Below are positions 11,507-25,005 of a DNA stretch of 49,863 nucleotides, piece after piece. Origin of the DNA: Desulforamulus hydrothermalis Lam5 = DSM 18033 (lineage in GTDB: Bacteria; Bacillota; Desulfotomaculia; Desulfotomaculales; Desulfotomaculaceae); contig NZ_CAOS01000015.1 in assembly GCF_000315365.1 (NCBI RefSeq), positions 1 to 49,863 of the forward strand, in the 5' to 3' direction. Positions within the stretch are counted from its first letter, which is position 1; every line of letters starts with the position of its first letter. The translations under genes were made by a program, and so were the position numbers. A model generated the notes under the pieces. That model made no database searches. It had not been told where the DNA came from and saw only the letters and a list, made by a program, of their open reading frames with translations.

Positions 11507-11577
11507 CTCCGGGCAATAACTTTATGGTTGTTAAACATTATACGCTCGGAGGGTGCTATTGTGACCATAAAATCAAC

Positions 11578-11601
11578 AGCCTCTCCCTTTGGGAGAGACT
11601 G
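11578..11601. terminator. Distal copy of the duplicated hfq terminator hairpin
   Basis: AGCCTCTCCC, a TTT loop and GGGAGAGACT make a 10-bp stem with one mismatch. On the minus strand it is followed by the T-rich GTTGATTTT, which the proximal copy lacks. It is 23 of 24 identical to 11868-11891 on the other side of the 265-bp element, so it is one half of a direct duplication. Confidence 0.85.
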
Positions 11602-11866
11602 CAGAGTGTCGACATACATTATCGGTGATTTATGATCCCCTTTGGCTCCGGTCTACGCACCGACAGCACTATGATTCGCTACGGTCGCCCTTGGGGTCGC
11701 CTCAAACGGGCCATCCTGGCCCGGTTCGGCTGGCGCCCACATCCTGTGAGCGCCACCCCAATGGCTCCTTTCGCTCATCAAGTGCTGTTTCCGGTGCTTC
11801 GACAAGTCGCCCACAGGGGATCATTAAACCACCTCACTTTGTTTTACAGCCTTTGTCTACAGTCTG
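11602..11866 (+). mobile_element. 265-bp terminator-targeting fold-back element, copy 1
   Basis: This 265-bp block is about 95% identical (14 differences by eye) to the reverse complement of 24720-24984, which has exactly the same length. It begins CAGAGTGTCGACA and, read on the other strand, begins CAGACTGTAGACAAA, giving imperfect inverted repeats of about 15 bp. The interior folds as nested stems: ATGATCCCC (11632-11640) with GGGGATCAT (11816-11824), GCACCG with CGGTGC, CAGCACT with AGTGCTG, then CCCTTGGGGT with ACCCCAATGG. The last stem encloses the two hairpins GGGCC/GGCCC and GGCGCCCAC/GTGAGCGCC. An open frame crosses it, but differences between copies mostly change amino acids, so coding is unlikely. 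It lies between hfq and spoVK, flanked by a duplicated hairpin. A MITE-like or structured-RNA mobile element is inferred. Confidence 0.85.
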
Positions 11867-11867
11867 T

Positions 11868-11891
11868 AGCCTCTCCCTTTGGGAGAGGCTG
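11868..11891 (-). terminator. Proximal copy of the hfq terminator hairpin
   Basis: AGCCTCTCCC, TTT and GGGAGAGGCT form a perfect 10-bp stem that begins 6 bases after the hfq stop codon. On the minus strand no T-run follows; the mobile element begins at once. The likely ancestral terminator was this stem followed by the GTTGATTTT tail now found next to the distal copy. Confidence 0.85.
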
Positions 11892-11897
11892 TCAGTG

Positions 11898-12143
11898 TTA
11901 GGACACGGGCTTGTTTTCCGAAAAGGAGGTATTAACCGGACGCAGCGGGCTGATGGTGGAAATTGCATGTTTATATACCATCAACTGTTTGCCGTCGCTT
12001 TCCAAAATCACCGTAAAGTTATCAAAACCCTTCACCATACCTTTTAATTGAAAACCGTTGATAAGAAATATGGTAACCGGGATATTTTCCTTTCTGACCT
12101 GGTTTAGAAAGGCATCTTGCAAATTAATCTGGGGTTTTGTCAT
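11898..12143 (-). CDS. hfq: RNA chaperone Hfq
   Basis: Hfq forms a hexameric ring that binds A/U-rich RNA and assists small-RNA pairing; in Firmicutes its role is often minor. The 81-residue protein shows both Sm motifs: Sm1 around [21 protein letters not shown] and Sm2 with [14 protein letters not shown], whose YKHA holds the conserved KH of the RNA-binding pocket. The ATG at 12143 is chosen because GGAGGG lies seven bases upstream; a longer ATG start at 12158 would overlap that site. It follows miaA in the same direction, the usual miaA-hfq order. Confidence 0.95.
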
Positions 12144-12197
12144 GAGGGTTCCCTCCATTATTGGAAAATATTTTCTTTCTATATCATAACAAGTGTT

Positions 12198-24290: not shown

Positions 24291-24629
24291 TCATGTCCCG
24301 TGACTGCCACGGTTCAGTTCATCTTTGTTCCCGGCACAACCGTCGGTGCACACCCGGTCTTTAGCAGCATCCGCCAGGCCGTTTAATAAATGCACCATAC
24401 CGGGTCCGGTAGTGCCGATACACACTGCCGGTTGGCCCGTTAACTTGGCAAAGGCGGCGGCCATCAGGGCAGCAGTTTCTTCATGGCGTACCGCATAAAA
24501 GCGAACGGTCTGCTGACGCGCCAGGGCATCCAGCAAATGAAAAATACCGTCTCCAACTACGCCAAAAACATGTTTGATCCCCCATCTTGCCAGTTGTTCC
24601 ACCATCACATGAGCCACAGTTTTGGACAT
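24291..24629 (-). pseudogene. Truncated ThDP-dependent enzyme (acetolactate synthase/pyruvate oxidase type)
   Basis: The first ~92 residues are a good N-terminal PYR domain of the acetolactate synthase/pyruvate oxidase family: VEQLARWGIKHVFGVVGDG, AVRHEETAALMAAAFAKLTG with the cofactor-activating Glu, and GTTGPGMVHLLNGLADAAKDR. After that the family continuation (a PVLAITG-like strand) is missing, replaced by about 20 unrelated residues and a stop. Enzymes of this family have about 550 residues, so more than 80% is lost, probably by a deletion. The ATG and its GGGAGG ribosome binding site are intact, so a short peptide may still be made. It sits just beyond mobile element copy 2. Confidence 0.85.
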
Positions 24630-24700: not shown

Positions 24701-24719
24701 CACCACCGGAAGTGGTGCC
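24701..24719 (-). terminator. Distal copy of the duplicated acyl-CoA synthetase terminator hairpin
   Basis: CACCAC, a short loop and GTGGTG form the stem. Read on the minus strand the hairpin is followed by CTTTTTTG, a normal terminator tail. It is identical over 19 bases to 24987-25005 on the other side of the element. Confidence 0.88.
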
Positions 24720-24984
24720 CAGACTGTAGACAAAGGTTGTAAAACAAAGTGAGATGGTTTTATGATCCCCTGTCGGCGACTTGTCGAAGCACCGGTCACA
24801 GCACTTGATGAGCGAAAGGAGCCCTTGGGGTGGCGCCCACAGGACGTGGGCGCCAGCCGAACCGGGCCAGGATGGCCCGTTTGAGGCGACCCCAAGGGCC
24901 ACCGGAGCGAATCATAGTGCTGTCGGTGCGTAGACCGGAGCCAAAGGGGATCATAAACCACCGCTAATGTTTGTCGACACTCTG
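24720..24984 (-). mobile_element. 265-bp terminator-targeting fold-back element, copy 2
   Basis: This is the second copy, in inverted orientation relative to copy 1 at 11602-11866, with the same length and about 95% identity. The plus strand begins CAGACTGTAGACAAA and ends TGTCGACACTCTG, the same imperfect terminal inverted repeats. Two stems mismatched in copy 1 are fully paired here: GGCGCCCAC with GTGGGCGCC, and GCCCTTGGGGT with ACCCCAAGGGC. It lies between the acyl-CoA synthetase gene and the truncated ThDP gene, flanked by 19-bp perfect direct repeats that are themselves a terminator hairpin. It has no transposase, so mobility would need enzymes supplied in trans. Confidence 0.87.
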
Positions 24985-24986
24985 AA

Positions 24987-25005
24987 CACCACCGGAAGTG
25001 GTGCC
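24987..25005 (-). terminator. Proximal copy of the acyl-CoA synthetase terminator hairpin
   Basis: This perfect 19-base duplicate of 24701-24719 lies 22 bases after the synthetase stop codon. On the minus strand it is followed by only TT and then the element, so the T-run was separated from this copy by the insertion. Confidence 0.88.

Follow-up and report, generated by a model that had tools for sequence, protein, structure and literature searches.

The window analysed here, a 49,863-nucleotide stretch of the draft genome of Desulforamulus hydrothermalis Lam5 = DSM 18033, carries two copies of a 265-bp block that is very probably a MITE moved by an IS1182-family transposase acting in trans, with duplication of whole stem-loops. 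The ends of the block, the duplication, the empty sites and the autonomous relatives that follow the same rule are shown directly. We describe the block as a new IS1182-type MITE that duplicates whole stem-loops, often terminators, on insertion and carries a known RNA family, TwoAYGGAY (RF01731), as cargo; the mobility part of this description is well supported. We infer that the element may have an RNA function and bind CsrA, and put the CsrA part forward as a testable hypothesis.

An earlier note on this DNA had called the block a MITE-like element or a mobile structured RNA, and it turned out to be both at once, with IS1182-type ends and duplications around an RF01731 interior. The view that it belongs to no named family did not survive for its parts, the interior being RF01731 TwoAYGGAY and the ends those of the IS1182 family; what stood was the combination of an IS1182-end MITE with a TwoAYGGAY interior, of which we found no description in the literature searched (open-access, with few subscription papers). 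The same note had asked for a copy count, for empty sites in relatives and for full-length elements that share the ends and carry a transposase, and each of these was found, as described below.

Two copies of the element in the window

The two blocks lie at 11602-11866 (copy 1, with the TwoAYGGAY RNA on the minus strand) and 24720-24984 (copy 2, with the RNA on the plus strand). They had been noted as two 265-bp blocks in opposite orientation with about 14 differences, and these coordinates were right: both are 265 bp long, and copy 1 differs from the reverse complement of copy 2 at exactly 14 positions (BLAST identity of 95% across 1-265, E 4.2e-117). The ends are imperfect inverted repeats, as had been claimed, reading CAGAGTGTCGACATA / CAGACTGTAGACAAA in copy 1 and CAGAGTGTCGACAAA / CAGACTGTAGACAAA in copy 2. 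In copy 1 these terminal inverted repeats occupy 11602-11616 (CAGAGTGTCGACATA, plus strand) and 11852-11866 (CAGACTGTAGACAAA, minus strand). The block had also been said to hold no transposase, for which 265 bp is indeed too short. Its size, its lack of coding capacity and its ends, which read CAGASTGTMGACAAA with 1 mismatch at one end of copy 1, are those of a MITE.

Two features go beyond the earlier note: each block is flanked on either side by a copy of a local hairpin, and one of its strands matches RF01731. A stem-loop at 11577-11601 abuts the low end of copy 1; a T-rich tail comes after it on the minus strand, giving it the look of a terminator for the hfq transcript. A second copy of this stem-loop, with 2 differences in 25, is found at the high end (11867-11891), where it adjoins the end of the hfq ORF. 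For copy 2, the stem-loop CACCACCGGAAGTGGTGCC abuts the element at 24701-24719 and recurs at 24987-25005, 2 nt from the other end.

Copy 1 is downstream of hfq (window 11602-12158), and its TwoAYGGAY RNA is in sense orientation; a readthrough hfq transcript would therefore carry the RNA. A promoter scan of copy 1 gave a single sigma-70-like match, which is not on the RNA strand but on its complement. We also observed that window 24291-24629 encodes a TPP-enzyme N-terminal domain of only 112 aa, and that this gene looks truncated.

Copies of the element across the host genome

The host genome, a 2.69 Mb draft in 16 contigs, gave at least 40 near-full-length BLAST matches to the element (the best 40 of 160 candidates). 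A 31-bp core, allowing up to 3 mismatches, was present in 89 places compared with 0 for the reversed control, and the 15-bp end, allowing up to 1 mismatch, in 137 places compared with 1 in the control. Because of these copy counts against near-empty controls, the likeness of the two window blocks is not due to chance. By crude ORF calls, none of 74 element copies lay inside an ORF of at least 100 codons, and their gene context was tandem for 41, convergent for 27, divergent for 5 and at an edge for 1. At locus L074 we saw 115-bp copies 2.6 kb apart and at L092 pairs of matches recurring at 718-bp spacing, which looks like local duplication.

Stem-loops flanking the element are duplicated

To count flanking duplications, 95 chained copies were reduced to 76 with both ends and then to 74 after removal of duplicates. 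A direct repeat between the left and right flanks scoring at least 12 was detected in 61 of the 74 unique copies, compared with 2 of 1457 mispaired controls, the other 13 copies falling below this threshold; over all 74 copies the median flanking repeat was 22 bp. In 58/61 cases the repeats were no more than 2 nt away from the element, left and right, and 58/61 folded as a hairpin of at least 4 bp. Both sides were identical in 24 duplications, with a median identity of 96%. When the first 30 loci were inspected by eye, copies were seen between two copies of a local stem-loop whose sequence varied by site; at L009 one flank held only half of the stem-loop.

T- or A-runs, typical of intrinsic terminators, adjoin 42 of the 61 duplications, and the target of the remaining 19 is a stem-loop only, which we do not call a terminator. 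With respect to the T-run, neither orientation of the RNA was favored (19 vs 16).

Thirteen copies of 107-124 bp are without the RNA core, and 7 of these 13 pass the hairpin-duplication threshold. Since some core-less derivatives carry hairpin duplications, the TwoAYGGAY core is not needed for mobility. We also observed much shorter derivatives, of ~37 to 111 bp, that keep these ends (L109:8242-8295, L123, L124, L125, also L112, L122 and L128), and by eye those in L109, L123, L124 and L125 sit between duplicated hairpins. A further interior subfamily shares the ends (L109:2475, L118, L119, L120:2449-2632 and L121; 75-90% similar over 41-130 bp). Most of the ends at four lone end-matches (L109, L120, L121, L127) belong to other short subfamilies, and the ORFs listed beside these four, considered as candidate transposases, were set aside, since by eye they resemble ordinary genes of the host.

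Both window sites are empty in Desulforamulus putei

As the flanking hairpins directly abut the element, they might be thought part of it, or of a segmental duplication, rather than target-site duplications. We regard this as having next to no probability: the hairpin sequence varies from site to site, and the orthologous empty sites of Desulforamulus putei DSM 12395 (genome G001) hold one hairpin. Over the window region this is the most similar genome of the same genus (79-83% in the longest matches), and it carries one full-length MITE copy as well as fragments (best 12 of 25 candidates). The empty-site comparison covered the two window copies. At the copy 1 site, beside hfq on D. putei contig C23, the flanks are contiguous, with one hairpin and the element absent. 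The copy 2 site is likewise empty, with one GCACCACCCGAAGTGGTGCC hairpin where the window carries two. For the two window copies, these sites refute the idea that the hairpins belong to the element. By eye, the copy 1 site in genomes G005, G006 and G008 also shows no element and one hairpin-like stretch.

Autonomous IS1182-family relatives follow the same target rule

Contigs C17 and C28 of D. putei both start with a 1604-bp element whose ends match those of the MITE. Its transposase belongs to the IS1182 family (NF033551, 456 bits against a cut-off of 270; also PF13751, PF05598 and PF01609). The IS on C17 and the IS on C28 adjoin 27-bp hairpins that are reverse complements of each other, the pattern predicted for contigs representing opposite sides of a single duplicated target. 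Five 1607-bp IS copies are present in genome G008, also of this genus, and every one has a perfect hairpin duplication of 21-27 bp. The MITE has the same ends and the same target rule as the autonomous IS, but the two share only ~15 bp at these ends.

Transposase relatives with 44-82% identity, in genomes G096, G389, G004, G080 and G195, had a repeat scoring at least 17 in 17/17 loci, and single IS loci in G287, G064, G342 and G127 also show the repeat. A repeat scoring at least 20 was detected in 25 of 31 IS loci (10 of 13 genomes) compared with 0 of 1240 mispaired controls (control maximum 19.5), and all 25 hold a hairpin of at least 6 bp in the repeat; with the threshold lowered to 17, the counts were 26/31 and 30/1240. 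This count omits L284, L288, L289 and L296, which are cut by contig ends, and keeps the six loci scoring below 20. Among the 31 IS loci, no duplication was detected at the three loci of G431 (34% transposase identity) or at L292 and L293, and the repeat at L327 scores only 17. The IS repeats range over 17-35 bp with stems of 6-14 bp, so the duplication is without a fixed length; its length appears to follow the hairpin.

No close transposase was found in the host draft genome, where the best tblastn match was 25% identical, and the host copies may therefore be orphans. The host PF13751 matches at L129 and L130 were rejected as the autonomous partner, being distant transposases without the MITE ends. 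At L130 (1100-3000; G000:C6, host), the distant IS1182-like transposase gene has 24-bp inverted ends and lies inside a CRISPR-like array, the repeat of which, GTTTCAATTCCTTATAGGTAGGCTAATAAC, was seen by eye on both sides of the transposase. The closest transposase of the phylum search (G432:C109:12899-14299, L284) is 91% identical, in a genome with which the host shares the phylum label only, and this distribution suggests horizontal transfer.

Proposed mechanism and comparison with known elements

In the mechanism that we propose, an IS1182-family DDE transposase would act in trans on the non-autonomous 265-bp MITE. The target stem-loop would presumably be extruded as a cruciform, with joining at its 5' feet, and repair would copy the whole stem-loop, leaving the element between two hairpin copies. 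At a terminator target, the upstream transcript could still be terminated by the hairpin copy that retains the T-run, and insertion would then be nearly harmless.

A strong RNA fold, hairpin targeting and a structured-RNA interior would also be in keeping with RNA-mediated spread, in which a retro-element or group IIC intron-like RNA homes to terminators. We consider this highly improbable: the terminal inverted repeats are also those of DNA transposons with a DDE transposase, the target is duplicated on both sides of the element, and some core-less derivatives moved too. Group IIC introns are not known to leave such a target duplication.

The IS1182-type mechanism can be set beside that of IS1272 and TnSha1, members of the same family. 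According to the text available of PMC5678879 and PMC4923244, these target stem-loops or terminators by structure with no sequence consensus, and remove the stem-loop with no target duplication. The present element is like them in its IS1182-family transposase and its structure-based targeting of stem-loops and terminators. However, IS1272 replaces or deletes the stem-loop, whereas here the whole stem-loop is duplicated, which places the MITE outside the stem-loop-replacing type. Wan et al. drew, as "pathway b", a joining at the 5' feet of the cruciform that may duplicate the whole stem-loop (PMC5678879, in the portion available), and our natural loci fit this pathway. In their accessible text both papers (PMC5678879, PMC4923244) cite Siguier et al. 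2015 for palindrome-targeting IS1182 members, and part of the whole-stem-loop rule may be recorded already there.

The MITE also resembles BOX, RUP and SPRITE of pneumococcus and the QMITEs of Coxiella, which, as far as the available part of PMC10969869 describes them, are short, intergenic and multi-copy with stable RNA folds. Two things set the present MITE apart from those elements: insertion duplicates an entire stem-loop, and it carries as cargo a conserved RNA family found elsewhere in the phylum with different outer arms.

A TwoAYGGAY RNA forms the interior of the element

RF01731 matches copy 1 at 11650-11804 on the minus strand (58.9 bits) and copy 2 at 24782-24936 on the plus strand (59.1 bits), against a gathering score of 43. 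Both GGA-type terminal loops of the family are present in the alignment. In copy 1 the CsrA-site-like AGGA motifs, with coordinates computed from alignment position, lie on the minus strand at 11742-11745 (hairpin loop 1) and 11714-11717 (hairpin loop 2). Both AGGA loops are kept in 55 of 56 full-length copies; strict CAGGAYG motifs number two in 39/56 copies and one in 17/56. Folding of copy 1 gave a z-score of -10.7 for the RNA strand and -9.6 for its complement; with both strands folding strongly, the fold by itself does not pick the strand.

In the available part of their paper, Weinberg et al. 2010 (PMC2864571) judged TwoAYGGAY to be probably an RNA and probably not cis-regulatory, whilst Rfam types RF01731 as cis-reg. 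It has been proposed to bind CsrA (PMC4333381, in the text accessible). The available portions of these two publications present RF01731 as a candidate RNA that has two loops of GGA type, with no mention there of mobility or transposon ends, whereas here it lies inside a MITE with dozens of copies. CsrA-sequestering RNAs of the CsrB/RsmY type, as described in the accessible parts of PMC4333381 and PMC4383904, similarly carry GGA in hairpin loops, more than once per RNA. Unlike these, each produced from one dedicated sRNA gene, the MITE has two putative sites per copy and many dispersed copies.

We compared the host copies with their consensus, those beyond the first 40 having been retrieved by a pattern covering element positions 206-236 and the divergence rates recomputed outside that pattern. 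Differences amounted to 127 of 6598 cells in core stems (1.9%), 182 of 2730 in core loops (6.7%) and 366 of 3527 in the ends (10.4%). If the MITE needed nothing but its ends, we would expect the opposite, with the ends less divergent than the core. At shared core positions the 13 short copies differed more than the full copies (4.6% vs 2.5%, p 0.006), in a comparison from which we draw no conclusion, as the positions overlap the search pattern and the cells are not independent. Variable sites showed almost no linkage (median r2 0.014; four gametes in 227 of 703 pairs), a sign of gene conversion or recurrent change; selection on the core is therefore no more than a possible explanation.

These patterns bear on whether the MITE is purely selfish, with the same mobility but a TwoAYGGAY interior that has no cellular role and is kept by gene conversion and a recent burst, a reading to which we give slightly less than an even chance. 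The near-zero linkage is what conversion predicts, as is the finding that singletons are rarest towards the middle of the element. The unbiased orientation of the RNA, the strong folding of both strands and the duplications around 7 of the 13 core-less derivatives also favor it. Against this, stems within the core diverge less than loops, and AGGA differences were found in 0/224 cells for loop 1 and 2/224 for loop 2. There were also 9 double-sided compensatory cells, at 5 pairs, compared with 0-1 in slid controls, in a pairing test that gave 30 one-sided and 48 broken cells as well and used a structure derived from the same sequences; these compensatory cells may be taken as modest support for the pairing.

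TwoAYGGAY and csrA across Bacillota

RF01731 was found at E <= 0.001 in 51 of 398 Bacillota genomes, 34 of them over the cut-off (host included). The gene csrA (PF02599) was present in 49/51 of these genomes compared with 236/347 of the others (Fisher p 4e-6), and when counted by genus in 38/40 compared with 157/226 (p 3.5e-4), both comparisons being confounded by phylogeny. This occurrence across the phylum, going with csrA, also speaks against a purely selfish element. The host genome itself carries csrA (G000:C13) together with the GGA hairpin loops.

The data do not bear out TwoAYGGAY as a family that is always MITE-borne: only 4 of 72 loci (L182, L229, L220 and L244, in genomes G090, G167 and G309, outside the genus) have both a hairpin duplication and IS1182-like ends or pieces of such ends. 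A flanking repeat scoring at least 13 was present in 9/72 (compared with 0.56% of 1080 controls, control maximum 16), and the other loci with such a repeat are not clean hairpins. This 72-locus test omits 4 of 30 loci from the Bacillota RF01731 search: L170, from the host, and L171, L190 and L192, which are near contig ends. At L188 an end-like stretch was seen by eye, with no flanking duplication in the 72-locus test. The TwoAYGGAY RNA and the MITE can be separated, yet they are found together in more than one case.

We observed different direct repeats, not clean hairpins, flanking the TwoAYGGAY cores of genome G407 (L179, L237, L238, L239). In G002, G005 and G008, other members of the genus (L034, L041, L042, L046, L047, L049, L051), the core is repeated with other outer arms; by eye these are near GGGTATGGTGTTATCC...GGATAACACCATACCC and without IS1182 ends.

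Implications for element spread and CsrA regulation

For an IS1182-type MITE, these natural insertions show duplication of the whole target stem-loop, which in the available text of the IS1272 paper is only one drawn pathway, and they do so for the MITE as well as for autonomous IS of several families. This suggests how an element can fill gene ends genome-wide without breaking termination.

An unexplained RNA family, classed in Rfam as cis-regulatory, is now placed on a mobile element, which makes its copy number, its position and the titration of CsrA open to test. Tentatively, and with a chance approaching but not reaching one in two, the TwoAYGGAY cargo may be a CsrA-binding RNA dispersed by the MITE. 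Rather unlikely, in our estimate, is the further proposal that an IS1182 clade duplicating whole stem-loops, often terminators, picked up TwoAYGGAY more than once and in the host made it a dispersed CsrA sponge. If true, such a sponge would consist of dozens of copies with two CsrA sites each, placed at gene ends without breaking termination, and transposition would set the strength of a global post-transcriptional regulator.
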